Shown: piece after piece, positions 8,490 to 49,818 of the stretch | Position numbering within the stretch: the first letter of the stretch is position 1 | How the letters are laid out: each line of letters starts with the position of its first letter | Assembly (NCBI GenBank): GCA_946807835.1 | Contig: OX327684.1 | Coordinates: 14,346,501 to 14,410,500, forward strand | Length of the DNA stretch: 64,000 nucleotides | Reading direction: 5' to 3' | Source: Ailanthus altissimus | Lineage: Eukaryota; Streptophyta; Magnoliopsida; Sapindales; Simaroubaceae | Translations under genes and position numbers: made by a program | The notes under the pieces: model-generated | The model's input: the letters and a program-made list of their open reading frames with translations, nothing else | Told to the model about the DNA's origin: nothing | Database searches by the model: none

Positions 8490-9840
8490 CTCATTAATTC
8501 AAAATCATTCACAAAGTAACTCGATCTCTTATCTCCGCATCTTCAGTCACTCTCACAAATTAGTAACTTCGGTTAAGTCCTTGCATAGGATGAACTTAAC
8601 CAATGGTAATGGCTTAGTCAACATGTCAGTAGGATTTTCAGACGACGCTATTTTTATTAGACTAACTTCATCATTTTGGACAATTTCTCGAATGTAATGG
8701 AGCTACACATCAATGTGTTTCGATCTCTCGTGGAACACTTGATGCTTGCTTAGGTGTATGACACTCTGGCTGTCATTATTTACACCGGTGTTCACATCTT
8801 CATTAGCTAATACCTCCGCGCATATACCTTTCAACCACAAGGTCTCCTTAATAGCTTCACCAACAGTATGACACTCTGGCTGTCATTATATACACTGATG
8901 TTCACATCTTCATTAGCCAATACTTCTGCGCATATTCCTTTCATCCACACGGTCTCCTTAATAGCTTCACCAACAACCACATATTGTAGAACTGATCTCC
9001 AACATACACTACACCCAAACACTATGAATATGTAACCCGTCAACGATCTTCTCTTGTCTAGATCACCTGCATAATCTGAGTATACGTATCTTCTTACCAT
9101 TTCATTACTGTCCTCATCCCTTTTATATATTTACTTGTGATTCGACGTTCCTTTGAGATATCTCAAAATCTATTTCACTGTAAGCCAGTGATCCTTACCA
9201 AAATTTATCATGTATTTACTCACTACATTCACAGCTTGTGCTATGTCTAGTCTTGTACAAACTATTGCATACATGATGCTCCCTACAGTGCTTACATATG
9301 GTACTTTACTCAGACGACGCTATTTTTATTAGACTAACTTCATCATTTTGGACAATTTCTCAAATGTAATGGAGCTACACATCAATGTGTTTCGATCTCT
9401 CGTGGAACACTTGATGCTTGCTTAGGTGTATGACACTCTGGCTGTCACTATTTACACCGGTGTTCACATCTTCATTAGCTAATACCTCCGCGCATATACC
9501 TTTCAACCACAAGGTCTCCTTAATAGCTTCACCAACAGTATGACACTCTGGCTGTCATTATATACACTGATGTTCACATCTTCATTAGCCAATACCTCTG
9601 CGCATATTCCTTTCATCCACACGGTCTCCTTAATAGCTTCACCAACAACCACATATTGTAGAACTGATCTCCAACATACACTACACCCAAACACTATGAA
9701 TATGTAACCCGTCAACGATCTTCTCTTGTCTAGATCACCTGCATAATCTGAGTATACGTATCTTCTTACCATTTCATTACTGTCCTCATCCCTTTTATAT
9801 ATTTACTTGTGATTCGACGTTCCTTTGAGATATCTCAAAA
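8490..9840 (-). pseudogene. Copia-1 RNase H region, duplicated and broken
   Basis: Minus-strand phrases typical of copia RNase H are present: YSDYAGDLDKRRSLTGYIF, KETVWMKGI, and NDSQSVILL where the family has DNQSAI. The domain normally spans about 140 residues once; here parts appear up to four times because of the nested tandem duplications, so no functional domain can result. Confidence 0.8.
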
Positions 9841-9983
9841 TCTATTTCACTGTAAGCCAGTGATCCTTACCCAAATTTATCATGTATTTACTCACTACAT
9901 TCACAGCTTGTGCTATGTCTAGTCTTGTATAAACTATTGCATACATGATGCTCCCTACAGTGCTTACATATGGTACTTTACTC
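8640..9983 (-). repeat. Tandem 672-bp duplication within Copia-1 RNase H region
   Basis: 8640-9311 and 9312-9983 are near-identical head-to-tail copies. Each contains an 89-residue RNase H piece that is identical in sequence (8831-9100 and 9503-9772, minus strand). Each copy also holds a smaller ~110-bp tandem duplication (about 8760-8869 and 8870-8979) covering residues of the same domain, so one duplication is nested inside another. The 110-bp pair is more diverged and therefore older. Confidence 0.9.
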
Positions 9984-10762
9984 ATCTGCAGTTTCTCATC
10001 TTCGGATGTCGGTGACTGTGCTACTGAAAGTCTGAAATGCATGGCTAAAGGAGTAGAGACAGCCTTTGTGTTGAACATACCAAACTTCTCTAGAATTTTG
10101 AGTATATATCGCTGTTGAGACAAAAAGATGATATCTCTTATTTCCCTCACAATATCCATTCCCAATATTCTCTTCGCTGCTCCTAAATCCTTCATCTCAA
10201 ACTTGCCACTTAATTGCTTTTTGAGCTTCTGTATTTCTTTCATATTCTTACATGCAATCAACATATTATCGATGTGTAGAAGTAAATACATCATTCTACA
10301 ACTTATGTTCTTGAAGTACATGCATCCTTCATACTTGCTTCTACTAAAGCCACAAACCATTATAAACTCATCAAATATCTTATACCATTGTCTAGGTGAT
10401 TGCTTTAACCCATATAATGACTTATTTAGTAAACAAGTATAATTTTTTTTCCCGGGCTCTTCAAACCCTTGCGACTGTGCCGTGTATATCGTCTTTTCAA
10501 GCTCTCCATATAAAAAAGCTGTCTTTACATCTATCTACTCTAGATGTAGATCAAGATTTGCTCACATGGCTAACAAAATCATAATAATTGTGTGCTTGAC
10601 GATTGGAGAGAATATCTCGTAAAAGTCAACTTCCTCTTTCTGAGTAAAACCTTGTGCAACTAACCTAGCATTGAATCTCGTAGGCTTTATCTCCGGTATC
10701 TCCTCATTCACTTTATACACCCACTTGCACAAAACTAGTTTCTTTTGAGGTCTCTCCACCAA
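9842..10762 (-). pseudogene. Copia-1 reverse transcriptase, inactive
   Basis: Two minus-strand blocks, 10562-10762 (CKWVYKVNEE, FNARLVAQGFTQKE) and 9842-10360 (GAAKRILGMDIVRE, VPYVSTVGSIMYA), are recognisable copia reverse transcriptase separated by a stop-containing gap. The catalytic YVDD box reads HIDN in LLLHIDNMLIA, so the polymerase active site is lost in addition to the frame breaks. Confidence 0.85.
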
Positions 10763-23755: not shown

Positions 23756-26700
23756 TTACCAACCGACTGCAATGTGGTCAATCCCTTGGCCATTTACAGC
23801 ACTTATACATCTAATCCAAATAACATCCTTAATCTTTTGGTAAACTTCGCTTGTAGAAGGAGTTTTCTGTTGGAAGACCTTCAAATTCCGTTCTCTCCAA
23901 ATAAAGTAGATTGTAGCGCAGAACGATACTCTTCTAATCTTACTGAGAGTGGATTTGCCTTTAGATTTCCTGCACATGAAGGAGATTACTCGTTGCCATC
24001 TGTTCGGGCATTGATTGAGTTGACACGCCCTTAGTACTTTGTGCCAAATTTCACTACAAAAGTTGCATTGGAAGAATAAGTGTGTGATTGTTTCCTTGTC
24101 ATTACCACAAAGGGGGCAATCATCTGATGGGATAACCCCCCATTTATTAAGTCTCTCTCTGGTAGATAATCTGTTCTTCAAAGCTAACCAAGTAACGAAG
24201 CTGTGTCTAGGTATATGTTGCGTTCCCCATATCAGTTTACTCCATCCCACCTTAGCCTCATTGTTCTTAAGATATCTCCAAGTACTCGCAATGGAAAACT
24301 TTGCATTGGGACTTGCGGTGAATGAAATTCTATCTTCTCTTTCCGAAATTGAAATATTTTTACGGAGATAGTCCCATACCTGAGAAGTGTACTCGTCCAA
24401 AGGGTCAGGAAGGTTCCAATGACCATGCTGCCATAGTTCATTAACCTTTGCACCCCGAGGAATATCCGCATCGGAGATTTGTATGTGGGGGAATTTATTA
24501 ACTATTGATTCTCCACCCAGCCATGGATCCCACCAAAATTGAAAGGACTTGCCGTTGCCCAATTCATAGGAGAACAATTGTTTTATCTGACTTCTCAATC
24601 CCAGCATCTTCCTCCAAGTCCAGCTACCATCCATTGGCTTTGTGATGCCCCAAAAACTTAGTCTCCGCAGTTTGTTATCAATTACCCATTTTGCCCACAA
24701 TGAGGCTTTCACAGCAACCAGCTCCCAGATGTGTTTAGTAACTGCCGCTGAATTCCACAAGCTTATAGATTTAATGCCAAGACCCCCCTCAGTTTTATCT
24801 TTGCATACCTCATTCCAGCCCACTAAACCTCTCTTCCCCTGCTGGTTACTTCCATGCCATAAGAAATTACGACATTTGCTTTCAATTTCTTTGGTGACCG
24901 ACTTAGGCAGGGTGAACATAGAACTCCAGTAGACATGCATGCTCATTATGACTGATTTTATTAATTGCAACCGCCCCGCATAGCTCAGATATTTCACAGT
25001 CCAGCTTGAGATTCTTGCAGAGATCCTATTAATGAGCTCCTGACAGTGGTCTTTCTTCAGTCCTCCAGAGATTAAGGGGATACCTAAGTATTTGATAGGC
25101 AAAACACCTTGCTGGAACTGAGTCACTTGAAGGATTGTCTCCTTGGTAGGTTGAGGCACATTCCCAAAGAAGATGAAGCTCTTACCAGCGTTTAGGTGCA
25201 ACCCTGAGACCATTGAGAAATCATCAAGTGCTTGTTTAAAGAAGCCCACGGACTTGACATCCCCATTAGAGAACAACAATAGGTCATCTGCGAACATCAA
25301 GTGGTTTAGTTTCAGCCTGTTACACCCTTTGTGATATATAAACTGGTTTTGAGGAATACAACTTAGGCTCCTACTGAGGTATTCCATGGCCATAACAAAA
25401 AGCAAAGGGGACATGGGATCCCCCTGCCTCAAACCTTTCTTCCCCGGGAAAAAGCCTTCTAGTCTGCCATTTACCATAACTGAGTACGTGCTTGTTCTGA
25501 CACACTTCATGATGATGTTGATAAAGTGATAAGGGAAATTCAGACCCATCAATACCTCTTCTAGGAAATCCCAAGATACTGAATCATAAGCTTTGCGGAG
25601 ATCTATTTTAAGAGCACACCTTGGGCTCCCACTGTTGCGATCATAACCCCTCACAAGCTCATGAGCTAGTAAGACATTATCTGATATCTTCCTATTAGGG
25701 ATAAATGCTGATTGACTAGGGCTGACCAAGTAGCTCACCACTCTCCTCAGTCTGCATGTTATAATTTTGGTAATACATTTGTAGAGGACGGTACAACATG
25801 CAATTGGTCTATAGTCCCCCAAGCTATGAGGATTATGAACCTTAGGCACAAGGGTAATGGCAGTGGCATTTATGGGGTTGTAGAACTGACCTGAGGAGAA
25901 GAGATGTTGCACAGCTGCAGTGACCTCCCTTCCTATTATGTGCCAGCATTTTTGAAAGAAGCAACTGTTATAGCCATCCGGTCCAGGGGCTTTATCACCA
26001 TTGATGCTGAAGATAGCACTTCTGACTTCTTGTTCTGTGACAGGGGCATTCAACATGTCTCTATCATCAACCTTCAATTTAGGGCCCGCGTCCATAATTC
26101 TTTTTTGTATGGACGTCCTATGGGAGGTAGGGGTACCCAACAAATCTTTGTAGTATCGGACAATGGCTTCTTTCACAACCGTGGGGTCTTCAACAATTTC
26201 TCCGTTTGGGTTTTCAATCGAAATGATTCTATTCCGAGCTCTTCTTTGCTTAACTGACTTATGAAAGTAGCTGGTGTTTGAATCCCCCATTTGAATCCAT
26301 CTGATTCTGGATTTTTGTCTGACAATGCTTTCTTCAGCATAAATAAGATTCCTTAAATGTTGGTAAATGCCCCTTTCCTCATCTTGAAGGGTTTGGTTGA
26401 AAGGGTCATAGATCAGACTACTCTGTAATGAGGCCAACATCAGTTTGTAATCTTCAATCTTTTGCTGGATGTCCGAGAAGAAGACCATATTAAGCTCTTT
26501 TAGCTTGGGCTTCAATAGCTTTAGTTTAAACCATACCTTGGCCATTGGGGGACCATGACAAACATGCTGCCACTCTCTCTCGACTGTGGGAAGAAAATCA
26601 CTGTGATTACACCAGGCGTTGAAGAACTTGAAAGGAACCTTCCCAATATATGAAGCTCTAGAAATGGAGACCACGAGAGGAGAGTGATCTGAAATGCCCG

Positions 26701-27358
26701 CTGGAAGAACTTCACACTCAGAAAACTCCAATGCATCCAGCCACTTTCCATTAACAAATGCCCAGTCAATTTTCCTCCAAATTCGTTGTCCACCTGTTTG
26801 ATTGTTACACCAAGTGTAGTGACAACCATGGTTCTTTAACTCGAATAACTCTAGTCTCGATATCCAGTTTTTGAACTGTTCTACCATGTTATCATTAACC
26901 CATTGACCGCCAATTCTGTCATTGTTGCTGAGTACATTGTTGAAGTCTCCTTGGATTAACCACGGTATAGTGTTGGGAGACAAATCCTCCATAAGGTCCT
27001 TCCACAGGTTCTCTCTCTCAATACTAGCAGAGGCACCATAAACCAGAGTCCAGTAAAACATCATACCATTAATAATCACTCTACTATGTATGAATTGTTG
27101 GTGTTTTTGTAAGATCGTGACATTGCATTTAGCCGGATTAAAGGCGATCCATATTCTTCCCATGTCTAGGCACTCAGAATTATTATCTAGTTTCCACTCT
27201 CGTAATGCCAACTTCTTCCAAATGGTATCTAGATTAGACAGTTTCACTTTTGTTTCTAACAATCCCAAAATACATAATCGACAAGATTTAATCAGAGCCC
27301 GTACCTCTGATTGTTTGCAGGGGTCATGGAGACCCCGAATGTTCCAGCTTGCGATCAT
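23756..27358 (-). CDS. LINE ORF2: endonuclease and reverse transcriptase, 1200 aa
   Basis: Residues 1 to about 225 form an APE-type endonuclease: ASWNIRGL at the start, LLETK (metal-binding Glu), WLIQGDFNNVL, RKIDWAFVN and SDHSPLVV (catalytic Asp/His). Reverse transcriptase follows at about 430-760, with DKAPGPDGYNSCFF, SAFIPNRKISDNVLLAHE, LKIDLRKAYDSVSWDFL, KGLRQGDPMSPLLF and the catalytic FADD at residues 689-692. The C-terminus has a zf-RVT domain with CPLCGNDKETITHLFFQC near residue 1081. There is no RNase H domain. The start is fixed by the conserved endonuclease N-terminus; its ATG overlaps the ORF1 stop as ATGA (27358-27355), suggesting coupled re-initiation. The protein nicks target DNA and copies the element RNA in place. 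No broken motif was noticed. Confidence 0.95.
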   Translation of the reverse strand: MIASWNIRGLHDPCKQSEVRALIKSCRLCILGLLETKVKLSNLDTIWKKLALREWKLDNNSECLDMGRIWIAFNPAKCNVTILQKHQQFIHSRVIINGMMFYWTLVYGASASIERENLWKDLMEDLSPNTIPWLIQGDFNNVLSNNDRIGGQWVNDNMVEQFKNWISRLELFELKNHGCHYTWCNNQTGGQRIWRKIDWAFVNGKWLDALEFSECEVLPAGISDHSPLVVSISRASYIGKVPFKFFNAWCNHSDFLPTVEREWQHVCHGPPMAKVWFKLKLLKPKLKELNMVFFSDIQQKIEDYKLMLASLQSSLIYDPFNQTLQDEERGIYQHLRNLIYAEESIVRQKSRIRWIQMGDSNTSYFHKSVKQRRARNRIISIENPNGEIVEDPTVVKEAIVRYYKDLLGTPTSHRTSIQKRIMDAGPKLKVDDRDMLNAPVTEQEVRSAIFSINGDKAPGPDGYNSCFFQKCWHIIGREVTAAVQHLFSSGQFYNPINATAITLVPKVHNPHSLGDYRPIACCTVLYKCITKIITCRLRRVVSYLVSPSQSAFIPNRKISDNVLLAHELVRGYDRNSGSPRCALKIDLRKAYDSVSWDFLEEVLMGLNFPYHFINIIMKCVRTSTYSVMVNGRLEGFFPGKKGLRQGDPMSPLLFVMAMEYLSRSLSCIPQNQFIYHKGCNRLKLNHLMFADDLLLFSNGDVKSVGFFKQALDDFSMVSGLHLNAGKSFIFFGNVPQPTKETILQVTQFQQGVLPIKYLGIPLISGGLKKDHCQELINRISARISSWTVKYLSYAGRLQLIKSVIMSMHVYWSSMFTLPKSVTKEIESKCRNFLWHGSNQQGKRGLVGWNEVCKDKTEGGLGIKSISLWNSAAVTKHIWELVAVKASLWAKWVIDNKLRRLSFWGITKPMDGSWTWRKMLGLRSQIKQLFSYELGNGKSFQFWWDPWLGGESIVNKFPHIQISDADIPRGAKVNELWQHGHWNLPDPLDEYTSQVWDYLRKNISISEREDRISFTASPNAKFSIASTWRYLKNNEAKVGWSKLIWGTQHIPRHSFVTWLALKNRLSTRERLNKWGVIPSDDCPLCGNDKETITHLFFQCNFCSEIWHKVLRACQLNQCPNRWQRVISFMCRKSKGKSTLSKIRRVSFCATIYFIWRERNLKVFQQKTPSTSEVYQKIKDVIWIRCISAVNGQGIDHIAVGW

Positions 27359-29187
27359 TGTCCCCTATGTGGGGATTTAGAGTTCCTTTTGGCACGTCGA
27401 CCCTTCCCTATAATTTCCACATCATGTGTCAGAGTAATAGTCTTCCTTAGGTTAAATCTGTCCATTACCTGGATCTCCTCTGTTCCCCCGGTTCCTGGCA
27501 TTTGTTTTGTTGCCTTATCTGTGTGGCCATACGCCTCATTTCCCTCTGGCGTCTGTATCTCCCCTTCTGTTTTACTTAGATTTAACTCTTTTGGTTCTGG
27601 CATCTCCGGGTGGCCAATAGGTACTTCAGCTTCTCTTTGATTATTCTGATCATTCCCTTTTGCTTTCCACACTTGTTTTATCCCTGTCAAGCAGTCTTTC
27701 CCATCATGACCAACCCGTTTACATTTAGAGCATACTGATGGCTTCCACTCATAAGTCACCTCCTGCCTAACCATATTACCCTCTTCGTCCTCTAATGTAA
27801 TCATGGAAGGGAAATCACCCTCCACATCCATATCCACCAGGACCCTCGCAAATGCCAGCCTTGTTCTGTTCAAAGTACATTGGTCGCTAAATTTAGGGGA
27901 TCCCAACGAGCTGGCGATACGACTCAACAGCGAGGGGCTCCAGAATTCCCACGGTAATCCTGGAAATTGCACCCAAATTGGTAAAGTTCTGATACTTGCC
28001 ACATCCATTACCATTCGGGGTTTCCAAGCTTTGAGTATCAAAGGGCGTTTATCAAAGGTCAGTGGACCATCCTCAAGAGCTTTTTGTTGCCCATATTCAT
28101 TCTCAAAGTTAAACAGAAACACCCCATCTTTGATGGAGTGAATCGAGATAAGGCCAAATTGCCTCCAACGGCGCGTTATAAAAGCTTGGAGAGGTTGAAA
28201 TTGGGGGCACAATCCATACACACACCCAATTAATGCATGCTGCCACCTTTTCTCTTCTTCTTTGAGTTCATTACTATTGAATTTCACAATTTTCTTACCA
28301 TTTGAGATTGTCGGGGGGACAAATTGTAGTTCACTGCCATGGCTTCGAGTACGGTTGTCAGCAAATAAAGATACCCAAGGCCTGTTAGATTGTACGCCCT
28401 TTCTGCCCTCGCAATCTGCCATTGTAGCACCCGCGGGTACTGTAGCACCCGCGGGTACTGTAGCACCCGCGGGTACTGTAGCAACAGCGGGTACTGTAGC
28501 AACAGCGGGTACTGTAGCAACCGCGCCCAATGTAGCAGCAGCAGCAGCGGACGTCGCCCCGTATCCCGCCCCACAAACAGCCGGCGCCGGACTCATGCCG
28601 ACAGCCAACACCGCGGGAGGCCCGTTGCTCCTGCGCATGGCCGCACTTTCTGGAGCCACCGGAGGAGCCCCGACGGACAGCCCAGACTCCGCGGAGGCAG
28701 GAACCATGGTGGCCAAGCCAGCCGGAGCGCGACCGCCATTCCCGAGCGCCGGTGCGGCCCTGGAAGAACCTCCATTCGTAGGGTGGCCAGGAGCCTTCGT
28801 TCCAGCAACCCGGGAGCCAGCAGAGCACAGCACAACCCCCTGTGCATGAACCTCGGCAGCCCCCGCAGGAGACCCGACGGTCCCGGCCGACGCACCTGCA
28901 GCAGCTCCACAGCGCAGAGGATCACCAGAACACCCCGAAGGCAACTCGGACAAGGCTGCCAGAGGTTCCCCACACCCGGAAGCAGCGTTCGGGGGAGCAG
29001 CCGCGTGGGACGCCGGCGGAGGATAGGCAGCAGAGGGAGGAGCAGCAGCAGTAGGAGGAACGGCTGCAGAAAGAGGATCGGCAGCAAGCTGGGCGCTACC
29101 ATCGTTTACTTGCTCGCTAGGCGAGCGATTCCGGGAACCGCGAGCGGACGGAGACGGCGGCATTTTGTTCGATTTTTTCTTCCTCAT
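27355..29187 (-). CDS. LINE ORF1: RNA-binding DUF4283/zinc-knuckle protein, 610 aa
   Basis: The N-terminal half (residues 1-270) is Ala/Pro/Gly-rich, low complexity and encoded by unusually GC-rich DNA. It includes six 6-residue repeats of the type ATVPA(V/G) at about 219-254. Residues 305-450 form a DUF4283 domain (RRM-like in plant LINEs), with WQHALIGCVYG, VFLFNFENEYGQQKALEDGP and LPIWVQFPGLPWEFWSP. A CCHC knuckle CSKCKRVGHDGKDC sits at residues 486-499. The Lys/Arg-rich tail ends in RAKRNSKSPHRGQ. By family this protein binds element RNA in a ribonucleoprotein. The ATG at 29187 lies 93 bases inside the 5' end. Its TGA overlaps the ORF2 ATG. Confidence 0.93.
   Translation of the reverse strand: MRKKKSNKMPPSPSARGSRNRSPSEQVNDGSAQLAADPLSAAVPPTAAAPPSAAYPPPASHAAAPPNAASGCGEPLAALSELPSGCSGDPLRCGAAAGASAGTVGSPAGAAEVHAQGVVLCSAGSRVAGTKAPGHPTNGGSSRAAPALGNGGRAPAGLATMVPASAESGLSVGAPPVAPESAAMRRSNGPPAVLAVGMSPAPAVCGAGYGATSAAAAATLGAVATVPAVATVPAVATVPAGATVPAGATVPAGATMADCEGRKGVQSNRPWVSLFADNRTRSHGSELQFVPPTISNGKKIVKFNSNELKEEEKRWQHALIGCVYGLCPQFQPLQAFITRRWRQFGLISIHSIKDGVFLFNFENEYGQQKALEDGPLTFDKRPLILKAWKPRMVMDVASIRTLPIWVQFPGLPWEFWSPSLLSRIASSLGSPKFSDQCTLNRTRLAFARVLVDMDVEGDFPSMITLEDEEGNMVRQEVTYEWKPSVCSKCKRVGHDGKDCLTGIKQVWKAKGNDQNNQREAEVPIGHPEMPEPKELNLSKTEGEIQTPEGNEAYGHTDKATKQMPGTGGTEEIQVMDRFNLRKTITLTHDVEIIGKGRRAKRNSKSPHRGQ
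28424..28531 (-). repeat. In-frame minisatellite, six 18-bp units, in LINE ORF1
   Basis: Three plus-strand units GTAGCACCCGCGGGTACT, two GTAGCAACAGCGGGTACT and one diverged unit. Each encodes six residues, so copy-number change keeps the frame. The unit contains ACCCGCGGGT, a perfect palindrome that could favour slippage. Confidence 0.95.
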
Positions 29188-29280
29188 GGATACGGCGTAA
29201 GTTAGTTCTGTGCGCCGAGAGAAAAAACCCTACTATGCCACGTCACCTTTTATTCATTAAACAGCGGTGTTTCTGTTTTT

Positions 29281-36406: not shown

Positions 36407-37134
36407 TGTTGAAAATTTTAAGAGTATTTTAAAATAAATAAAATAAAGTGGAAGACAAAAAATTAAAAAGAGAATTAAGGAAAATACACAAACCGATGTA
36501 AGTATAGACTTGGCACTGCAATTTTAGGCACTCTGTTTCTAGTGCCATGGAACCAAAGTATAGGCACCGATGTAAGTATAGACTTGGCACTGCAATTTTA
36601 GGCACTCTGTTTCTAGTGCCATGGAACCAAAGTATAGGTGTCGTGGCACTAAAGGCTTTCCATGGCACTAAAGGCTTTCTATGGCACTAGAGGCAGAATG
36701 CTCAGCACCGCAGCTTTAATCCTCGGTACCGCAACGTTGATTGCTAGAAATGTGTTCTTTAAGAAAAGTCATGTCTTTCCAACATTTGTGACTCTTTAAA
36801 GGGGTTCGATGTCTCTCCAAAGAAAAACCACTTCTCCATAAATTGATGGCATTTTTCAAAATGAAACATATATAATTTCTTTGATCTTGAATTCCTTATT
36901 ACAATCTATATACTAAAACTCTAAAATCAAAATTATTTATTGTCTAAGAAAAGTTACACTTGAGAGCGCATTCTTGCAATTTTCATCTTATCATTGAATC
37001 TTGGAGATTACATTGCCATTCAACCTATTTGCATCAAGATTATAATCTTGTAGGGGCATAAATAATCTTAAGGATAATGCTTTACACGCCTTGACAAATG
37101 CTTTTTTCTTGTATCCTTAACAAAATTTCCAACA
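36407..37134 (+). repeat. Copia-3 5' LTR
   Basis: 728 bases. It contains a 74-bp tandem duplication not present in the 3' LTR and a series of GGCACTGC / GGCACTAAAGGC phrases. Confidence 0.85.
36493..36640. repeat. 74-bp tandem duplication inside Copia-3 5' LTR
   Basis: CCGATGTAAGTATAGACTTG starts at 36493 and again at 36567; the two units look identical. The 3' LTR has only one diverged unit (about 41534), so the duplication arose after insertion. Confidence 0.9.
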
Positions 37135-37189
37135 ATCTTAAGATTATTTATGGATAAGATGCTTCCTTGCTGGCCGTTGTCAAATCATT

Positions 37190-38424
37190 GTCAGAGGCAA
37201 CCAAGATTCTACTGTTTGATGAAAAATATTTTAAATGATGACAAGATCGATTGTTTGATACATTAGATGTGATGAACATAACAGAGTATTTCACACAACA
37301 ACCACAAAATTTAGATGTAAAATACTATACAAAGTTATTTTCAATATGGAATAAGGAAAATAAAGTATGCCGTAATAATGTTTTAAACACATTATATAAT
37401 AAATTATATGATTTGTATTCTACATATCAGATTTACATGAGATTTGGACACAATTAAAGAAAAAAAATACATTATAGAATATGCTTGTGCCAAAAAATAT
37501 ATTGGTGTAGACTTCATAGACTTTAAAATGTGTGAGAAAAAAGATGGTACTTTTTAAATTCATGAATTTTATCTATTAAATTAATGATTTTAAAAATGAT
37601 GACATTGTTCTCTCCGAGCCTTTTGTGGCTAGTTGCTTGGTTAAAAAGTTATCAAATTTTTAGAATAAATATAAGAAAGTAATAAGTACAAAAGGAAGCA
37701 TTTAAAGTTAGGTGATACAATTGTTTATATCAGAATTGAAGAAAAGAATTGCCAACGAGAGAATAGTGAGAAGGGCAAAGAAATGGTTTCTAAGGCCAAC
37801 TTGGTTGAAAATGATGTTGTTCTAAGTGAGAGGCATTCTAAATCCACAAACAAACAATATTTAAGAATTCAAAACTCTCATTCAAGAAGAAATATAATTT
37901 TTATATTTGTGGTAAGATTAGTCATTTTGCTAATTAGTGTAAGTACATGAAAGAAGATAAAAAGGAAAATAAGAAATCTCCAAAGACTAATTTGATTGAG
38001 GGAAATGAAGTAATTGCCGCTGTTATAATTTTCCAAGTGAACATAATTATAGTTGGCAACAAAGAATGGGTCATAGATTCTGGAGCCACTAGACTCATAT
38101 GTGGTGATAGAAATACTTCATGATTATGTTCAAGTAAGAGAAAGAGAAGAACAAGTTTATCTTAGTGATTCTCATTGTGCACTTATGGTGGGAAAAGAAA
38201 AAATTCTTCTTAAGTTAATTCTGGAAAACAATACTTGCATTGAACAATGTGTTCATATTTCTAATATTAGGAACGATCGTATTTCTGTATTTATGTTTAG
38301 TAAAATAAATATAAAAATCTCATTTGAAGGACACAAAATTATAATGACCAAGAATGAGTATTCATTGAAAGGGGATATTGGTCCAACATTTTATTCAAAC
38401 TTAATATATATAACACAATTATAA
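37190..38424 (+). pseudogene. Copia-3 gag and protease region
   Basis: Gag pieces start with FDTLDVMNITEYF and CRNNVLNTLYNKLYDLY (37251-37457). A zinc knuckle FYICGKISHFANxCKYMKED lies near 37895-37950, and the protease motif WVIDSGATR at about 38070. An open 107-residue piece (38101-38424) matches the region after the protease (MTKNEYSLKGD). Stops and a frameshift separate the parts. Confidence 0.7.
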
Positions 38425-38439
38425 AAATAAACGTACTTC

Positions 38440-39110
38440 TTCTACTTATATTTTTGACTCCTTTCGTATATGACATAATAGATTTGGTCACTTAAATTGT
38501 TTTTATTTGAAGAAAATGAGAGATATCAGTTTACTTTTAGTATGAACTTAGAAGAGGTTCATAAATATAATGTGGGTGTGGAAGCTAAGTTTATAAAGAA
38601 AAGTTGTATATCAATAACTTTAAAAGAAACCGAGTTACTTAGTTTGATATAACCTTTATAGATAATTTTTTAAGATATACAAAAGTATATCTATTGAAAA
38701 ATAAAGATAATTCATATGAAAAATTCTTAATCTATAAACAAAAAATTGAAAATCAACTTGGAAAGAAAATCAAAAGATTAAGAAACGATCTATTTAGAGA
38801 ATATGTGTCTAAAATATTTAATTCTTATTGTGAGGACAATGGGATTATACATGAAACTCACCTCTATATTTTTCTTAATAAAATGGGGTGGCTAAAAGGA
38901 AAAATTGAACTCTAAATGACATGATGAATTCTATGTTAATAAATTTTGGGGCACCTATGAACTTGTGGAGGGAAACAATACTTACTCTTACCACATACAA
39001 AACAGAATACCATACAAGAAAACTGATAAGATACCATATGAGTTATGGAGATGTTATGAGCCTAACATATTATATCTCACAATGTAAGGAGGTATCTTTT
39101 TAAAGTCTTA
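38440..39110 (+). pseudogene. Copia-3 integrase remnant
   Basis: Weak matches only: a HxxGHLN-like phrase near 38480, a degenerate core (YSREYVSKIFNSYC-like and GIIHE stretches at about 38805-38860), and LWRETILTLTTYKTEYHT near 38960, similar to the copia 'FWAEA...Y..NR' stretch. Catalytic residues cannot be assigned. Confidence 0.5.
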
Positions 39111-39543
39111 ATTTCTGATCCAAAAAAGAATAGAATGAGACCTAAAATAGTGATTGTATATTTATATGTTATACCCAGAATAGTACTACATATATATTTC
39201 ATTAGAAAATACCAATAAAATGTTTGATGCAAACAATATAAAGAATCTAAAGTGCAGAGTTCTTTGAGACAATTTTTCCTAAGAAAACACAAGTTGAAAA
39301 ATCATTGACTCATTTAGAATTACACAAAAGTCCTTCGGAAAGTTTTGAAAATGAACTAAGGAGAACTAAAAGAATAAGGAAAGCCACTAATTTTGGTAAT
39401 GATTTATATATTTTTTTTTATGAAAACGAACCTTCAAACTTTTGGAGAGGCTATGTTCTTTCATGATGCTTCTTTATAGAAAGAGGCTGTCAATGATGAA
39501 ATAAACTCAATCATACGTAATTCATGTATAGAAAATTATTGAC

Positions 39544-40890
39544 TTGCTTCTAGGAACCAAGCCTATAGGTTGTTTATGGATCTTTAAAAAAAGGTTGAGG
39601 GTTGATAGTTCAATTGAAAAATATAAGGTTAGATTGTTTGCCAAAAGGTTTACACAAAAGAAAATTTTAGATTACTTTGACACTTATGCTCCTATAACCA
39701 GAACAATATTCATTAGAGTTTTAATTATATTAGTTGTAATTTATGATTTGCACATACACCAAATAGATGTTAAAGCTACATTTTTAAATGGAGATATAGA
39801 AGATAAATTTTATATGGCACAATTGAAAGGTTGTGTAAAACTAGGTACGAAACATAAAGTGTGTAAACTTATGAAATCATTATATAGGTTGAAACAAGCA
39901 CCTACACAATGGCATAAGAAATTTGACAATACTCTGGTATCAAATGGTTGTATAATTACTAATTCAGATAAGTATGTCTACTTTAAAAGCTTTGATACTA
40001 AAAACTTTAGAATTATTTGTCTCTATGTAGATGACATGCTTATATTTAATTCTAGTATAAAAATGATAGATGAGACTAAGAGATTTCTATCTATTAAGTT
40101 TATAATGAGAGATATGAGAAAAGTAGGTGTAATACTTGGGATTAAGATAATGAGAACATGTAACAGTCTCACATTATCCCAAGAACACTGTGTGAAAACA
40201 TTCTTAAAGAAATTTAGGTACTTTGCTTGTAAACCAATGACAACACCCTATGATGCAAGTATTAATTTATTTAAGAATAATAAACATAGTGATAATCAGA
40301 TCTGTTATGTTCAAATAATTTGTAGTCTCATGTACTTGATGAACAATATTAGGCTTAATATAGCATATGCAATAGAGCGACAAAGTAGATATACTTAGAA
40401 TCCGAGCAAAGAGCACAGACACCTCGGATAGACTTGCAAAATATTTGATTACCTTGGGAGAAGGTGTTGTGTGTTGAAATTTCACTAAACAAATATGCAT
40501 AGCTCGATCTACTATGGAGTTAGAATTGATAGCTTTAAAAAACATTTGTTCCGGAGCTAAGTGGTTGAGAGCACTTATAATTGATCTTCTTATTAATACT
40601 CACCCTTCTAAGTCAAATTCAATCCATAATAATTGTCTAGCTATAATAACTAGAGAGAAAAGTAAAGTCTATAATGAAAAAAATAGATATATATGTCTAA
40701 GATATAATATAATTAAGCAATTGCTTGAATCTGGGTTAGTGCACCTAGATTTTATGAGGTCAAAGTTAAATTTGACCGATCCTTTGATAAATCCACTAAA
40801 TAGAAAGTTAGTAGCACAAACGTCGAGGGATATGAGACTTCTATCTATAACACAAAGCAAAAGTGATAGTAAACTCCACCTATTTGATTG
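39544..40890 (+). pseudogene. Copia-3 reverse transcriptase and RNase H
   Basis: An uninterrupted 284-codon stretch (39544-40398) covers most of RT: GCLWIFKKRLRVDSSIEKYK, HQIDVKATFLNGDIEDKFYM, KSLYRLKQAPTQWHKKFD and the intact catalytic ICLYVDDMLIF (about 40017-40050). RNase H follows in another frame, with MELELIALKNICSGAKWLR at 40514. The intact polymerase box is at odds with the strongly decayed gag and integrase. Confidence 0.85.
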
Positions 40891-41433
40891 AAGATCCCAT
40901 AAAGTAAGTTCACAGTGGTAAGAATAAGTCATTTGTTGTCTTACTGTACTAATAACTATATACATTAAGAGTTCTCCCTAAAACTAGGTAGTACTTTTGC
41001 AATGAAAAATGATGAGATTAATCTCTTAATGAACTCCGTAGCCAATTATTATATGGTGACGTATTATATTATAAAACATATTTGATGAAGTGTCGCCTAT
41101 GTGAGTATATAATTAGGTCGATTCATATGAGAGTAAGATAGACATCTCTAGAGCACTCATGAACCTAGAATGACACAGGGCCATAAAATGTGCCACACTA
41201 CTGGACAAACAAGTTATTAGAGAATTTAACGTTAATATTTAACTCTCTATTTTACACCCAGAAATTAAAGGTTTGTAGAAACTTTATTTCATCTAATTCC
41301 TGTAAAATATGATTAATTGTTCAATGATTTATTTATAACTTAGAAAAGTACATTCATATAAGTTAAATTCAACATTTGAATTTAAAGTTGATTTATTTAC
41401 TTTGGTTTGTTTATTTTAAAATATGTGAAGGAT

Positions 41434-42151
41434 TGTTGAAAATTTCAAGAATATTTTAAAATAAATAAAGTAAAATGAAAGACAAAAAAATAAAAGAGAC
41501 TTGGAAGAAGAATTAAGAAAAATACACAAATCAGCATTAAGTATGGGCTTGGCATCACGACGCTAAAAAATGGAAGTCGTGGTGCTAGAAATAAAGTGCC
41601 CAACACTGCAACACCAGAATATAGGCGTTGCAGCACTAGAGACAGAATGCCCAACGTCAAGGAGTCAATTTTTAGCGTTGCATCGTTGATTACTAAAAAG
41701 ATTGTTGCGGCATTGGAGACAAAATTTCTCCATGGTGTCAAGGCATTGATTGCTAAAAATGTGTTGTTTAAGAAAAGCCACCATGCTTTTCTAACATTTG
41801 TGACTCTTTGGAGAATTTGGTCTATCTTGAAAGAGAATCCTCCTCTCTATAAATTGATGGCATTTCTCAAAATGAAACATATACAAATTCCTTGATCTTG
41901 AATTTCTTATTACATTCTATATACTCGTATACTCTAAAATTAAAGTGATTACTTGTTGTCTAAAAAAAATTGCACTTGAACGTGCACTCTTACAACTTTC
42001 ATCTTATCATTGAATCCTAAAGATTATATTGCCATTTATTCCATTTGTATCAAAATTATAATCTGTTGAAGCAAAAATAATCTTAAAGATAAACACTTTA
42101 CACCTTTGACAAACACTTCTTTCTTGTATATCTCCAACGTATCTTCTAACA
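41434..42151 (+). repeat. Copia-3 3' LTR
   Basis: 718 bases, partner of 36407-37134. Carries phrases such as GGCATCACGACGCT, AACACTGCAACACC and GGCGTTGCAGCACT. Confidence 0.85.
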
Positions 42152-42890: not shown

Positions 42891-44125
42891 AGTAACTTTG
42901 ATATATAAAACAAAGATTAAATTATTATAATGCTTTAACATTTTGAGAAGAAGCTGATGATTCATAGACAAAGCCCTTTATAGAAATCTGTTAAACTCAA
43001 CTGGTGTCGGTGTAGCCATTAGCAGACAATGAATGAGATACGTTTCTGTCCCTTCCAGCAACATATGTAAACTCTAATTAACTTCCACTACTTTCCTTTT
43101 TTATTTAGTATCAACATTTAAAAATTGGACGTGTCTGCTCGTATGTTATTATAAAAGAAAAAATAAGAATATAAATTATTATTTCAGAATCAAAAGCAAT
43201 CCCAAATCCCAAAACACAATCTTAATCAAAACCAATCTCAATTCCCAAACATCAACATGGAACTCATCTTTGCCAAAAAGTTTTCGTGTTTGATTTTAGT
43301 TTTATAATTGTTAGAGAAATCTCACTATTCAAATTTCGTAACTTTAAGTAATAATTTAATATTAGTATTAAACCTAGTGTTTTTCTGAGTAAAATATGAA
43401 TTCAGTTTAAAGATTATGTGATTTCTAAAAGAAATTATTTAGAATAAAAACTAAAACAAAAATTATTTGAAAGAAAGTGAGTACTTGCAATTGTGCATTC
43501 CAATGTTTTTATTATATTATTATTTTAGAAAAATTAGTTAATAAAAAACTAAATATTAATATTAAAAATAAATATTAATAACATATTCACGTAGTGTTTA
43601 AAAATGCTGTCTGTTTTATTTGCATTCTTATTGCCATTAGTTAGGATTTTCCTTAACTAATAAGTCCTTTTATTTGGTCATTTTTGACCCATTTTCTATG
43701 TTACCAGAAAGACTTTATTTTTTATTTTTATTTTATTAGTACGAGAATGAGCTGCCAGCCAGCTGTATTTTTCTGAAAACTAACAGTATCTGATAAAAGC
43801 CAGGCCATTTGTTTGCTAAATGCCTTTGTTTGATTATAATAGGAATTGCTGCACGTTTAACAGTTTGTCCTATTTTGGATCTCCATTGTGTTCACAATAT
43901 CACAATCATTAAAAATTGTGTGACAGTGAATTGGCTCGTATGCTCATCGATCCACCATGCCCCCAATAAAGATGCAAAAGAACCCACTCTGGACTTATCA
44001 ACCTCGTTCGCTTTTCTTCTTCTTTTTCACTTGCTGAAAATTTACTATATCTATCCCTCTTTTTCATACTCAATTGAGAGCAAGTGAATAAAGGGAAAGG
44101 AAGTGATCTCAGTACTCTCCCACCA
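42891..44125. other. Intergenic DNA between hairpin and CACTA element
   Basis: AT-rich. It becomes more promoter-like toward 44050 (CT-rich stretch and ACTATATC). No gene was recognised other than the short frame at 44126. Confidence 0.45.
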
Positions 44126-44248
44126 ATGGGAAGGAAGATTAAACATAAAATATTCGAGGACTTGATGGAAACTGTGGACAGTATAACAGGAGGGCAAGGT
44201 AACAAGACTCAAATTGGGGAGTCCTCAGGCTCGCCAAGCCGCCGATAG
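44126..44248 (+). CDS. Possible 40-aa small protein (uncertain)
   Basis: ATG in the context CCACCAATGGG, with a frame MGRKIKHKIFEDLMETVDS, then a Gly/Gln/Ser-rich tail and stop at 44246-44248. Base composition is higher in GC than the surroundings, and a pyrimidine-rich leader precedes it (about 43990-44070). No paralogue lies in the window and I do not recognise the family, so it may be an accidental frame or a first exon truncated by the CACTA insertion 35 bases downstream. Confidence 0.3.
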   Translation: MGRKIKHKIFEDLMETVDSITGGQGNKTQIGESSGSPSRR

Positions 44249-44304
44249 CTGGACACGCTTCTGATTGAGATAATAAGATTATCACAACAAGAGATATGGG
44301 TATT

Positions 44305-44340
44305 TGCGACTAGTTTTGCGATAGCGATTTTAGCCGTCGC
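44305..44340. repeat. CACTA subterminal repeats, left
   Basis: TTTGCGACTAG, TTTTGCGATAGCG and TTAGCCGTCGCAAAA in tandem and inverted order. They match the right-hand cluster. Confidence 0.8.
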
Positions 44341-44419
44341 AAAATTTATTTAATTAAATTTTCTTTTAAAAAAACTTAGAAAATAAAGTCTCCTTTCAGT
44401 TTTCTGTCGTCTCCTTTGA

Positions 44420-44719
44420 ATGCAAGTATTTCACCATTGCATGTTAATCCTAGACGCCACCATTTCCAAATCTCTCCATACTCTCTTCCACTCACTAATC
44501 CCTCGCTCTCTCCTTCTCTTCTTCGAATACTCCACTGACTTTCGATTCTCATTTTCCCTCACAGTATCTCTCTACTTCACTCCCATCCGCCACCTTTATC
44601 TGATCCCCATCTTCATCGTCCTCCTCCTCAACCTCGTCTTTATTTTATTTCTTCAATTTTTGGTTAGGATTTTTTCAATTTCATCATGAGTTAGTATATT
44701 AATTTTTTTAATTTTTGGT
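44420..44719 (+). other. C/T-rich segment of unknown origin in CACTA element
   Basis: An open stretch (44420-44689) of 89 codons, very hydrophobic with several Leu/Ile/Phe runs. Pyrimidine-rich composition resembles a plant 5' UTR as much as a coding exon. It directly precedes the COI1-like fragment and could be another captured piece or the COI1 gene's leader. Not identified. Confidence 0.3.
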
Positions 44720-45018
44720 TACGAGCTGGATGCGTTGACTCGCAAGAATATAACAATCGCTTTGTGCTACACGACGATGACCAGTGGCTACGACGTCATT
44801 TTAAGCACCTGGAATCGTTTAAGTTGAAGAGGAAGTCGAGGGCGGCTATGTTTAATCTAATACCAGAGGATTGGGGCAGTTATGTGACTATAGGTTGAAG
44901 AAATCGTGGCGTCTTTTAATTGTTTGAAGTCGCTTAATTTCAGGAGGATGATTGTGAGGGAGTTAGATTGGAGCTCTTGGCTAAGGTTAGAGAGAAGATG
45001 CTTCAGGTCTTCAGCACG
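44720..45018 (+). pseudogene. Captured COI1-like F-box receptor fragment
   Basis: Three overlapping reading frames give consecutive parts of the N-terminal region of the plant jasmonate receptor COI1: YELDALTRKNITIALCYTT (44720-44776), RRHFKHLESFKLKRKSRAA then MFNLIPEDWGSYVT (about 44787-44890), then VEEIVASFNCLKSL and NFRRMIVRE, and after another shift ELLAKVREKMLQVFS. In the family these residues run without gaps from the F-box end into the first leucine-rich repeats. At least three frameshifts and a stop make it non-coding. Both ends stop abruptly. The intact host gene is not in this window. Confidence 0.85.
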
Positions 45019-46018
45019 TGAGTCGCTTGCACAGTTGCTTTACTTTGCTCTATTTCATTAATTAAAAATGATGTAGATGTCTTGTCACTTTGTTCAAACG
45101 ATGTAGATGTCTTCTTTAAATCATTAATTAAAAAAATGAAAAAAAAAGAATTCTTATTTTTCAAATTAATTCAATGCTTTATTAGCTTTAGTTGATCATT
45201 GTCATCTGTGTTTATTTGTTAAAAGTAACTACTTTTTATCACAAAGAGTTGGTTTTTACTTTCTTATCTTTCTAAGAACTCTCCGGTGTAATACAGTCCT
45301 TCAATTAATTTATTTTTGTGCATATTTTGCTCACACCTAAAAAAACATTGCTGTTTTTTAGTCCAATTTTTTTTTTTTTGAAAAATTCTCATTAAAAAGC
45401 CGCTAATGAGGGCTGCATACTTTGATTTTGAAGTTTTGTTTTCTTTGTGTTCAATGTTTGAATTCTTTAACTTTAAACAAAAAAAAAATTTGTTTGAATT
45501 CTTAATTCTATTATTGAATATTGACCAACTTATTCAAAAAGGGTCTGAATTGTTTTTTAAATTTTTTTTGCTATTTTATGAATAGATTGCTCCCTTGGTG
45601 GAAGTATTAAACAGAGCATATTAATTTAATGTTTTGGTCACTTTTTTTGTTTAAAGAAATTTTTTCTTAATTTTGTGAACAAAAGCAAGTTGACTATTTT
45701 GTTGATAGTTTTGATTTAATGGAATGTTTAGTCATTTCTTCTATTAGTTGTCAATTGATAGCTTTGGGAATAATTACATGAGTCAATTTCCACACTAGGA
45801 ATTACTTTTATGTTTATCACTAGTTATCTTGATTCTTGGCTTGTGAAGACTCTTATTGAAAGCAATTGAACTGAGACTAAAGCCTGGGCATTCGATTTAG
45901 TTTCCTTAAGGCTAAAGTACTTCAAACTCTCATTTATTCATGGACGTTTTAGGTTTGTATTTTATAATATAGTATAATATTTTATTCTTTTTAAATTTCC
46001 CATGTTATGCATGTAGGT
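45019..46018. other. CACTA interior, unidentified AT-rich DNA
   Basis: Intron-like composition. A short repeat GATGTAGATGTCTT occurs twice (about 45072 and 45101). No domain recognised. Confidence 0.45.
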
Positions 46019-46274
46019 GGGTGGATCACAGGATAACAATCCATGTCTCTTTGGAGGAGCTTCTTATATTTAGGTAACTTTGAGAGAATTTAACCTCCCT
46101 CTTACTATTTTTTTATTTTTAATATATGTTGTTTTGAAGATGGTGTGAGAGTGAAAGATGCCAAGCAAATAAAGGAGAGGCCTCAAAATCAAAGAAAGGC
46201 TTTAACTAGCATCAATCAGAACATAATGGGAGCCACCCCTCCCCTTAGTGCAATCAACAAATAGGGATTTTCAG
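46019..46274 (+). pseudogene. Captured B2-type cyclin N-terminal fragment
   Basis: GGSQDNNPCLFGGAS (46022-46066) resembles the extreme N-terminus of plant CYCB2 proteins, with GTG where the ATG is expected. After an intervening AT-rich piece (46074-46140), QNQRKALTSINQNIMGA (46184-46234) and PLSAINK-stop-GFS match the conserved QNRRAL...INQNI(M/I)GA...NKRG segment. The fragment ends at TCAG followed by GTAATC, an exon edge with its donor GT. A stop replaces the Arg after NK. B2 cyclins control the G2/M step; here only the regulatory N-terminus is present, without the cyclin box. Confidence 0.65.
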
Positions 46275-46337
46275 GTAATCAATCCATTATCTTAATATGA
46301 AATATGAATATCTCTTAGTTTGTTAAATTCTAGTTTC

Positions 46338-46497
46338 AGCACTTTCAATCTTCGATTTATCATGTAATTGATCTAAATTTTACTACATTCAAGAAAATAA
46401 TTGATATATATATATATAGCACTTTCAATCTTCGATTTATCATGTAATTGATCTAAATTTTACTACATTCAAGAAAATAATTGATATATATATATAT
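46338..46497. repeat. 80-bp tandem duplication
   Basis: 46338-46417 and 46418-46497, both starting AGCACTTTCAATCTTCG and ending in a TA run. The copies look identical, so the event is recent. It lies in the likely intron after the captured cyclin exon. Confidence 0.92.
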
Positions 46498-47910
46498 ATA
46501 TATACACGCACACTACAAGTAATGAGAATTTAAAAGGCCCTTTTGAGTCTTAATGACAGAGGTGTTAGACTTAAGTAAATAAAATTAATTATTAACTCAT
46601 TTTGCTATTCTCTTTATATCAAAATTGTTAAACTTTTAATTTATATATATTTCATAATAGTTCAATAGGCGTGTTATCTAATAGCATTGTGTTTTTGTTT
46701 TTATTTGGGCTTGGTATAGTTATAACACAAAGTAAGGATTCTAGTCAATTCATTAATTTCGGAGTGTAGTATATTAAAGGTGAGTTAAGCCAAGTGATGA
46801 GGTAGATAAAATTTCATTGCTTGTTATATATATATATATATTAGTTTCAAAAGTTATTTTATGATCGATAAGTGTATGTTGGTCTCCATAGCTTAATACA
46901 ATCTTCAAACGTTAAAGAAGATTGTACTTAACTCTTCATAGGTGACACAAACAAGTAAATCAAAATGAATATCTCTGTGCAAAAAGGTAAATGAAAATTC
47001 TAAACTCATTAATGAGGCAGTTACTAAAAGGTCTCCTAAACTTGAAAATACCTAGATGGAGGAGAGCAAAGGAAAAATGCCTGAATGTATGCAGGTGAAA
47101 ATTAGTGGTTATCTAAAATTTGAGTTTCTTGTCAACCTTTAAGTTCATAAAGAATTCACATAAAGATTTCCTATTAGTTCAATCTGGTACTACACTACAA
47201 GAAAATGGGTTTATAATGTTTATGCACTGAAAATTCTGACATTTTAACTCGGTTTTGTTGCCTTTGATTATCTAATTTGTGGAACAGTTAGGAGCCATTG
47301 CGTGTCAACATTTGGGCTTTAAAGGGTAAGAGAATAATTTCTAAAAAGATGTGTTGAAAAAGGTCTAACGGGCGCTTAATGCAGGGAGGTAAGTGAGTTA
47401 TCTAAGACGAAGTGAAATAATATTGACTTCAAAAAAATAAAAAGTGAAATAATATTTCTTGCCTATATTTACTATTTACCTTATACACTCCACTCATATA
47501 CCTAACTACCTACTCATGACATTATGCATTAAATAATATTAAGTTTCATGGTTATTGATGGATTGTTATTGTAAGAGATAGTTTCACTTATTTTCCTTTC
47601 AAAGCTAAGTTTCTAACAAATTCCATTACATCTTGAGTTGATAAATTGTTTAGGATAATTTAAGGAGAACTTTTAATGAACTTTATATGAAATAAGATTT
47701 ATATTTATTTTAGGTAAACTTCTCCTTAATTAGCGGGAGAAAGATAATGACCATTTATTTATTTGTATTTATTTTAAGATTTGTACGAACTTTGACCATT
47801 TGCGATGTTATTAGGTTCTTCCGTTAGTTTATTCTGCTGTCAGTTCTGCACGTAACATCCATATCCATATTAATTATCTAATTTGAATTATTTATATCCA
47901 AAATGGTGTA
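46498..47910. other. CACTA interior, AT-rich DNA with stray CACTA-like ends
   Basis: CACTACAAGTAATGAG (46512) and CACTACAAGAAAATGGG (47193) look like CACTA left termini. The second is close to the consensus. No matching right ends were found inside, so these may be remains of nested elements or of the rearrangement that built this composite. No genes recognised apart from the listed fragments. Confidence 0.45.
47193..47209 (+). mobile_element. Isolated CACTA left terminus
   Basis: CACTACAAGAAAATGGG is a textbook CACTA end, better preserved than the outer left end at 44283. It may define a shorter element 47193-49085 that shares the right end and contains only the MADS fragment. Confidence 0.55.
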
Positions 47911-48002
47911 GGAAACTTCTGGGTGAAGACCTGGGTCCACTCAATACAAAAGAGCTTTAGCATTTACTTGAGACATTTTTCAAGCATATTAGGACAACTA
48001 AG
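47911..48002 (+). pseudogene. Captured SEPALLATA-like MADS K-box exon
   Basis: Preceded by an acceptor-like GTGTAG and followed by AAG|GTAACA. The 92 bases encode LLGEDLGPLNTKEL, a stop, then HLLETFFKHIRTTK. SEP/AGL2-type MADS proteins have LLGEDLGPL..KEL..LE..L...LK.IR(S/T)TK as one exon of about 100 bases, so both splice edges are where expected, with a small net deletion. The K-box mediates tetramer formation in floral MADS factors. The isolated exon cannot make a protein. Confidence 0.8.
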
Positions 48003-48960
48003 GTAACATAACACTTTATTACCGCACTCTTAATATTTTTCTTCAAAGTTTCTTATACATTTTGAAAGTTGCCAACATATTAAGAATTTTTCAATTCTTA
48101 AAAAGATGGGTCCTTTTAACTTATTAATGAGCTTATGCATAGAAGGATAATATTTCAGTTAGTTTGGCCTCTCTTACAATAAAATAAAGCAAGAGATTAA
48201 GGCATTAGATCTCTCTCCTACTAAATTTGAAGGAGGAATTATTTAATAAAAAAAAAGACCTATTTGCTTACCTTCTGTTTCCCCAAACAATCATAGGTTT
48301 GTTACTTGTTATTTGTTTTCTTTTCTTTTTGGCCTCTTAATGTTGGAGATTCCCTATCATTTTTTATTATTCTTTTCATTGCACTTATTTGATATCTTCC
48401 TCTGCAAAACCATTAGGTATCATTATGATTCAATTCTCCAATTTATAATTGTTTTATGTCTATTGTGTTGATTTTTAGACTTGACTCATTTTGCAAGTTC
48501 AGTTTGTAGTAATTAATGAAATACAAATTCAACAGGTGTTCCCAAGTTTATAGGATATGGAAACATGCTCGGTTTTCATCAAGTTTATGGGATATATAGG
48601 AATGACTAAAACCTTCACTTTGGGGATTTAAGATTGTGTACATAGGCATTTTAGAAGATGAAAGGATTTGGGATCTAATGTAATATTATAACATTTGAGT
48701 CATAGGTCAATTTATGTATGGTACATAAAGAGAATTTAAAAAAATATTTTAATATGATGATTGTTAGTAAAATTATTTTTACACATTTTCTTAATGTTAC
48801 TTTATTTGTAGGGTTTTTGTATGATAATATTATAATATAATTAATTTTAATTATTTAAATATTTTGCATAATTTATATATACAAAAAATATTAATTATTT
48901 TGATATTTTGGTAATTAGCTTATACAAAAAAGATTTTTTTTGAAATTATTTTTTTTCTTT
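48003..48960. other. CACTA interior, AT-rich DNA after the MADS exon
   Basis: The beginning may be the captured intron. No further exon of a MADS gene was recognised and no other coding signal seen. Confidence 0.4.
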
Positions 48961-48971
48961 GGTAAACTTTT

Positions 48972-49072
48972 TTGCGACGGCTAAATACTCGTTGTAAAAT
49001 TTTACGACGGTCGCATATGCGATGATTTTTTGCCATCGTAAAGCCGTCGCAAAAGCCTTTTGCGATGGCTAA
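48972..49072. repeat. CACTA subterminal repeats, right
   Basis: At least six TTTGCGACGG / TTTTACGACGG / CCGTCGCAAAA units in both orientations within 100 bases, ending just before the terminus. Confidence 0.85.
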
Positions 49073-49085
49073 TTTTTTTGTAGTG

Positions 49086-49818
49086 TATTTGAGAAGGAGA
49101 ATTTGCCTAGTTTACATTTTTGTAATGCTTTTACTTTGTTGTTCTTCAAGTTATTATAAAGAGATATGTATGCATTTCATGCAAATTCTTTGTTTCTTTA
49201 GCTTTTTTTTAAAAACATAATTTCTGTTTAAATCTTAGGTCTTTTAACATGATATCCATACATGTATATCGTAGCTTCATCTCCCTTTGTGTGCTAGTTC
49301 CTTTTTGTTTGATCTTCAAGATTTTTCTTAGTAAGAACTTTACTGAATTAGCTTTAAAAAAAAACAGCAAAGTGTGTTATGGTTAAAGAGTCTGAGAAAA
49401 CAATTTGCAGACATAACATCCGAAGTAGTAAAAGTGCAAACATTATCTAGTATGTTTCTCTTCTTCTAATATGATTCTCATGGACCCATATAAGCCTTTC
49501 ACTTCGAAGTCTTTTGGGTGATTTTCTCAGCTACCATGCACATCTTAGAAAAATGAATTGAAATAAACAAAAAAAAAAAGGCAAATGAAATATTTAAACC
49601 AGTGCCACCATAAAAATAGTTGCAGGAATATAGAATATTCAAAGGATTCCACATGTGGGTGAATACATAATAAAAGTAAAAAGCATTTATATATCTAATA
49701 TCTGCTCACTTGATTGTTAAATTTTCTTTAATTGCTTATAACATAAGTTCTTCGAGTAATTATGGGTGCTTTCAGTAACCAGATTATATTACTTCCAGAG
49801 TTTGCACTAAAATTTAAT
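49086..49818. other. Intergenic DNA between CACTA and MULE
   Basis: AT-rich, no repeat partner, no coding signal. Presumably a remnant of the duplicated segment that once lay between the small-protein gene and the anchor block. Confidence 0.45.

Follow-up and report, generated by a model that had tools for sequence, protein, structure and literature searches.

The DNA described here is a window of 64,000 nucleotides (64 kb) from Ailanthus altissimus (contig OX327684.1, positions 14,346,501 to 14,410,500 of the forward strand), and all coordinates given below are positions within this window. Between positions 44283 and 49085 lies a CACTA element of 4803 bp, a candidate Pack-CACTA, in which pieces of three host genes, viz. 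COI1 (a hormone receptor), cyclin B2 (a cell-cycle gene) and a flower gene of the SEP-type MADS class, are found on the plus strand. The two ends of the element consist of the following features, the target-site duplication having been read directly.

44280..44282: target-site duplication TAT, left copy
44283..44298, plus strand: left terminal repeat CACAACAAGAGATATG, diverged from CACTACAAGAAAAT
44306..44344: left subterminal motifs GCGACTA, GCGATAG and CCGTCGCAAAA
48970..49068: right subterminal motifs TTTTGCGACGG, TTTTACGACGG, CCGTCGCAAAA and TTTTGCGATGG
49070..49085, minus strand: right terminal repeat, reading inward CACTACAAAAAAATTA
49086..49088: target-site duplication TAT, right copy

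The CACTA-type termini CACAACAAG and CACTACAAA are identical at 7 of their first 8 bases and at 9 of the first 13. Sites matching CAC[TA]ACAA occur 12 times on the two strands of the window, and only two of the 12 have the motif GCGAY (or its complement RTCGC) within 70 bases. These two are the sites at 44283 (plus strand) and 49085 (minus strand), which face each other and are both adjoined by TAT. Exact copies of TTTTGCGACGG are present three times in the window, every one of them at the two ends of the element; when up to two mismatches are allowed, 10 copies are found window-wide against 6.1 expected, an enrichment which is not significant (11 of 100 shuffles reach 10). A target-site duplication of 3 bp is typical of CACTA elements, and the characteristics by which this superfamily is recognized, viz. 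terminal inverted repeats, subterminal motifs at both ends and the 3-bp duplication, are all seen here, in agreement with a preliminary description of this DNA, which had delimited the element by its termini, its GCGACGG-type subterminal motifs and the TAT duplication. The insertion of the element at this position made the TAT duplication.

The transposase gene that marks an autonomous CACTA element was not found, as had also been stated earlier: no transposase family was matched anywhere in the element when its six frames were scanned against Pfam with E values up to 10. In a scan of the plus-strand frames against the PDB sequences, the matches at E <= 1 were to COI1, TIR1, SEP3 and one unrelated protein (weak, 0.18), whereas the minus-strand frames gave a single weak unrelated match (0.58); neither a gene nor a transposase is seen on the minus strand of the element in the PDB and Pfam scans of the six frames. 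Host coding DNA between the ends, which defines a Pack-CACTA, is provided by COI1, cyclin B2 and the MADS K-box, as listed below.

44720..45009, plus strand: COI1 fragment, Arabidopsis residues 45 to about 142, based on PDB, Pfam PF18791 and a frameshift-aware alignment (44720-44991)
46011-46288, plus strand: cyclin B2 piece as a whole, apparently comprising exon 1 with its start codon, intron 1 and a portion of exon 2
46011..46073, plus strand: apparent cyclin B2 start codon and exon 1 (M, stop, VGGSQDNNPCLFGGASYI, stop), with a donor GT at 46074, placed by donor-window rank and by the pea intron position
46074..46139, plus strand: apparent cyclin B2 intron 1 remnant (GTAACT...GAAG), 66 bp
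46140..46288, plus strand: cyclin B2 exon 2, 5' part, with one stop codon
47912..48002, plus strand: MADS K-box exon 4 (SEP type), 91 bp, with AG before it, GT after it and one stop

The three fragments are all on the plus strand, and frameshifts or stops are present in each of them. Their assignment to COI1, cyclin B2 and a SEP-type MADS gene, first proposed in the preliminary description, is borne out by PDB, Pfam, profile and shuffle-controlled alignment results. For COI1, the region 44715-45030 matches the Arabidopsis protein (PDB) at E 5.7e-6 in one frame and at E 4.3e-9 in another, and TIR1 falls far below COI1 for the same piece (18.6 versus 39.6 bits). The Pfam family PF18791 is matched above its cut-off (37.6 versus 33 bits). 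A frameshift-aware alignment to COI1 residues 45-136 has 51 of 88 aligned residues identical (58%) and a score of 219, in comparison to 26.5 +/- 4.1 (maximum 43) in 60 single-base shuffles. This alignment involves four frame breaks, each modelled as the loss of a single base. The start of the F-box is missing from the piece, and a GTGAGT is present 3' of it at 45018.

The cyclin B2 piece was compared with plant proteins collected by means of a cyclin B2 query, with which 4183 proteins scored at E <= 1e-20 among 7990 candidates, and the comparisons are based on the best 120 of these 4183 plant cyclin B2 proteins. When the 120 proteins were used as tblastn queries against the window, 49 gave a match at E <= 1; the cyclin locus accounted for 42 of these matches (best 7.7e-6) and other places for 7 (best 0.062). 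A profile of residues 17-70 of the 120 proteins finds 46133-46288 at E 5.5e-7 and a profile of residues 1-70 finds the same locus at E 7.1e-7, whereas the next best stretches for these profiles in the six frames of the window have E values of about 1. The four best matches show 38-44% residue identity. Two further protein searches made with the cyclin piece gave no match.

Upstream of this exon 2 sequence, the reading ATG-TAG-GTGGGTGGATCACAGGATAACAATCCA... corresponds to M, stop, VGGSQDNNPCLFGGASYI, stop, which resembles the Nelumbo sequence MGGSDENNPGVLRPANFQ. When all 6126 donor-adjacent stretches of this length in the 64 kb are ordered by mean score to the exon-1 sequences, which were drawn from 81 of the 120 proteins, this one comes third. 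Further, two pea cyclin isoforms are distinguished by a single residue directly following ...FQ, as the use of an alternative acceptor would give, and this difference places intron 1 where the window reads TAG followed by GTAACT. This stretch has been called exon 1 on the grounds of its rank, its position and the intron site.

For the MADS piece, the translation of 47912-48002 is KLLGEDLGPLNTKEL, a stop, and HLLETFFKHIRTTK. Taken alone, the piece matches SEPALLATA 3 (PDB) at E 2e-4 and the Pfam K-box at E 1.2e-4 (22.6 bits, below the cut-off of 30), and with the whole element frame the corresponding E values are 0.06 and 0.022. Its frameshift-aware score is 78 against 18.1 +/- 2.5 in 60 shuffles. 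The sequence LLGEDLGPL...KEL is one which we take to be of the SEP type and not of AP1 or AG, with AGL6 being close, and in our judgement the exon is of SEP rather than of AGL6 origin. At 91 bp it is 9 bp short of the usual 100 bp. In the in-frame alignment three residues are missing, from which we infer a probable deletion of 9 bp; a competing alignment, which contains a frameshift and has 20 of 31 residues identical, is preferred by the frameshift-aware method. The length of 100 bp for exon 4 holds, with few exceptions, in SEP3-like, AGL6 and FLC genes (PMC4852290).

The exon boundaries bear on the manner in which these pieces were acquired. It had been claimed earlier that two of the fragments retain a donor GT, and this is only partly borne out: such a site is supported after SEP exon 4 and after cyclin exon 1, the latter being an exon that was not reported at that time, but there is no support for a donor at the end of the cyclin exon 2 piece. 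The candidate site there, TTTCAG followed by GTAATC, was dropped, as the protein alignment continues past it (GFSGNQSI versus GFSDKQEI); isoforms from cotton place the next known cyclin junction near residue 94, some 37 residues beyond GFS, although an intron may lie in between. Because the order exon 1, intron 1, exon 2 is kept in the cyclin piece and AG and GT flank SEP exon 4, the inference that the cyclin B2 and SEP pieces would have been taken up from genomic DNA, together with an intron and the flanks of introns, and not from mRNA, is supported, as the preliminary description had also held.

Based on these results, the locus is very probably a decayed non-autonomous CACTA element of the En/Spm type which carries genomic pieces of COI1, cyclin B2 and a SEP-type MADS gene. 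By the general mechanism of the En/Spm transposase, its ends and the subterminal GCGACGG repeats would be bound in trans by the transposase of a related autonomous element. A likely route of capture would be that neighbouring CACTA insertions fuse and that the outer ends then remobilise together with the DNA lying between them, a route with which an internal terminus at 47193, described below, would fit. The gene pieces are by now broken and probably inert passengers, for which a coding function is improbable. A number of observations weigh against this interpretation. The termini agree imperfectly, at 9 of 13 bases, and the left one reads CACAA; a match between AT-rich duplications of 3 bp can arise by chance, and the evidence for the element comes from a single copy within one 64-kb window. 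Besides the ends and the gene pieces, about 4.0 of the 4.8 kb were matched to no source. Cyclin exon 1 is absent from the matches of its own profile (116 sequences, first 22 residues) at E <= 5, and the best match of this profile is elsewhere, at E 0.22. Lastly, the internal terminus lacks the GCGAY motifs of the outer ends. The internal sites concerned are the following.

46511..46519, plus strand: CACTACAAG, possible second internal terminus, weak
47193..47209, plus strand: internal CACTA terminus CACTACAAGAAAATGGG, exact

With up to three mismatches, CACTACAAGAAAATGGG is found twice in the window versus 0.26 expected (3 of 100 shuffles had at least 2), the second occurrence being the right end at 49085, with 3 mismatches. 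The shorter CACTACAAG alone is present twice in the window, in both cases within the element (46511 and 47193), against 0.53 expected per window, and 10 of 100 shuffles gave at least 2. No partner end for 47193 was found between 46001 and 49200 except 49085, and the alternative of taking 47193-49085 for the main element was not adopted, since CTA at its 5' side does not agree with TAT at its 3' side and the motifs differ. The terminus at 47193 may be derived from a different CACTA family, or it may be unrelated.

According to two papers (PMC8903248; PMC13317346), the outer ends of neighbouring insertions can mobilise them together once the internal terminal repeats have been deleted or mutated. 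In terms of this capture model, the element could represent two neighbouring CACTA insertions which became fused at 47193, the left one (44283 to about 47192) contributing COI1 and cyclin B2 and the right one (47193-49085) the SEP exon. This suggestion is a tentative one, and we consider it rather doubtful, because the inner terminus fits the model but is without the outer motif. If it is true, one sequence would be showing the stepwise growth of multi-gene Pack-CACTAs, and with the inner terminus, if it is the scar of a fusion, the model of gene capture by tandem insertion could be tested.

The same internal sites can also be read differently, viz. that there was never a single mobile unit and that independent events (a smaller CACTA, separate insertions of fragments and a nested CACTA) have come to lie by chance between two CACTA-like ends. 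The exact terminus at 47193 together with CACTACAAG at 46511, the divergence of the outer ends and the lack of the outer subterminal motif at 47193 are all in keeping with such a composite. However, the outer ends share both the motif and TAT, whereas none of the other candidate sites (12 in total) has the motif, and the inner terminus is without a partner in the range 46001-49200 other than 49085, where the CTA preceding 47193 is not matched by the TAT following 49085. A composite origin is for these reasons unlikely.

A different possibility concerns not the origin of the element but its effects. The pieces could serve as cassette exons in read-through transcripts, similar to the soybean element Tgm-Express1, whose fragments are reported to be spliced into F3H transcripts (PMC1947982), and splice-like sites are indeed seen around the first cyclin exon and the intron following it, as well as around SEP exon 4. 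However, no Pfam domain above its cut-off is present within 3 kb to the right of the element (six frames) or within 2.2 kb to the left (three plus-strand frames), the sole match in the flanks being a weak one to DUF7044 (E 0.046), and the reading frames of the pieces are broken, which makes a role of this kind quite improbable. Least credible is the proposal, made in the preliminary description, that transcribed fragments yield small RNAs which tune the parent COI1, CYCB2 and SEP genes: gene sequences taken up by Helitrons, Pack-MULEs and Sireviruses of maize are reported (PMC13317346) as reservoirs of small interfering RNAs acting on their donors, but the anatomy of the present element lends this no support, as the longest inverted-repeat arms within 44000-49400 are 37 nucleotides at 73%, none of the best 25 of 144 inverted-repeat pairs forms a hairpin pairing the gene pieces, and the fragments are in sense orientation, short, broken and diverged (58% for COI1 and, among the cyclin matches, 38-44% for the best four, these identities being to proteins of other species and giving no certainty on identity to the donor).

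A decayed Pack-CACTA of this description is a real but degenerate member of a kind of which soybean, maize and Arabidopsis have already provided examples. The closest comparison is with Tgm-Express1 (Zabala and Vodkin), a 5.7-kb CACTA element carrying five gene fragments with introns. The two elements are alike in their similar size and in containing parts of exons and introns from a number of unrelated genes, among them one of the cell cycle (CDC2) in the soybean element (PMC1947982). However, Tgm-Express1 has five fragments, lies in an intron of F3H and is transcribed and spliced, whereas three decayed fragments are identified here, and they are known from the sequence alone. The Pack-CACTA and Pack-TYPE work (PMC8903248) shares with the present case the proposed model of capture with internal terminal repeats, but that study clusters copies and drops singletons, whereas one copy is present in the window, and the element described here differs in having a diverged left end while retaining an exact internal terminus. 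Similarly, tandem insertion followed by hybrid excision, described by Catoni et al. 2019 (as cited in PMC8903248 and PMC13317346), has two adjacent elements moving as one, along with the intervening DNA, once the inner ends are deleted or mutated, hence inner relics are to be expected; here one clear inner end is left, but without the subterminal motif of the outer family.

The preliminary description had regarded the combination of fragments as undescribed. The trio of COI1, cyclin B2 and SEP may well be new, whereas CACTA elements with several fragments are known, as Tgm-Express1 demonstrates. No paper dealing with CACTA, gene fragments, capture and COI1 together was found in the literature searched, and no published CACTA family with this subterminal motif is evident among the matches listed, as judged without reading the papers. 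With this element the known set gains an old CACTA which has several donors and contains an intron, while existing knowledge on the regulation of COI1, cyclin and SEP genes is unchanged. A scan of viral contigs for related ends matched three (L001, L002 and L003), which were dropped, as a blastn comparison of the window with all three gave no match at E 1e-3; the sequence at the matching site is identical in L001 and L003, and L002 has five open reading frames of at least 100 amino acids in the bacterial code.

Some other features were observed within the element. A C/T-rich stretch (44400-44640) which resembles an untranslated region separates the left end from the COI1 piece. A short exon-like stretch, EQLGAIACQHLGFKG, lies at 47280-47330 between AG and GTAAGA; it has no Pfam match, and in the PDB scan only a weak unrelated match runs across it (MarR-type, E 0.18). 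A further feature lies 3' of the cyclin piece:

46338..46497: perfect tandem duplication of 80 bp

This duplication ends in an AT repeat, the rest of the element being decayed, and it could be either the result of recent slippage or an effect of the assembly.

Other transposable elements are present elsewhere in the window. A long interspersed nuclear element on the minus strand (23759-29229) has two long open frames, of which the one of 1202 amino acids contains reverse transcriptase and zf-RVT, along with an endonuclease match below the cut-off, and the other, of 624 amino acids, contains DUF4283. A direct repeat of 675 bp, 99.3% identical and arranged head to tail, is found at 8638-9984 beside a Copia reverse transcriptase (9845-10534). 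Lastly, a Copia-type element (36737-42129) adjoins the CACTA element, with RVT_2 at 39532-40395 and candidate long terminal repeats that are 81% identical.

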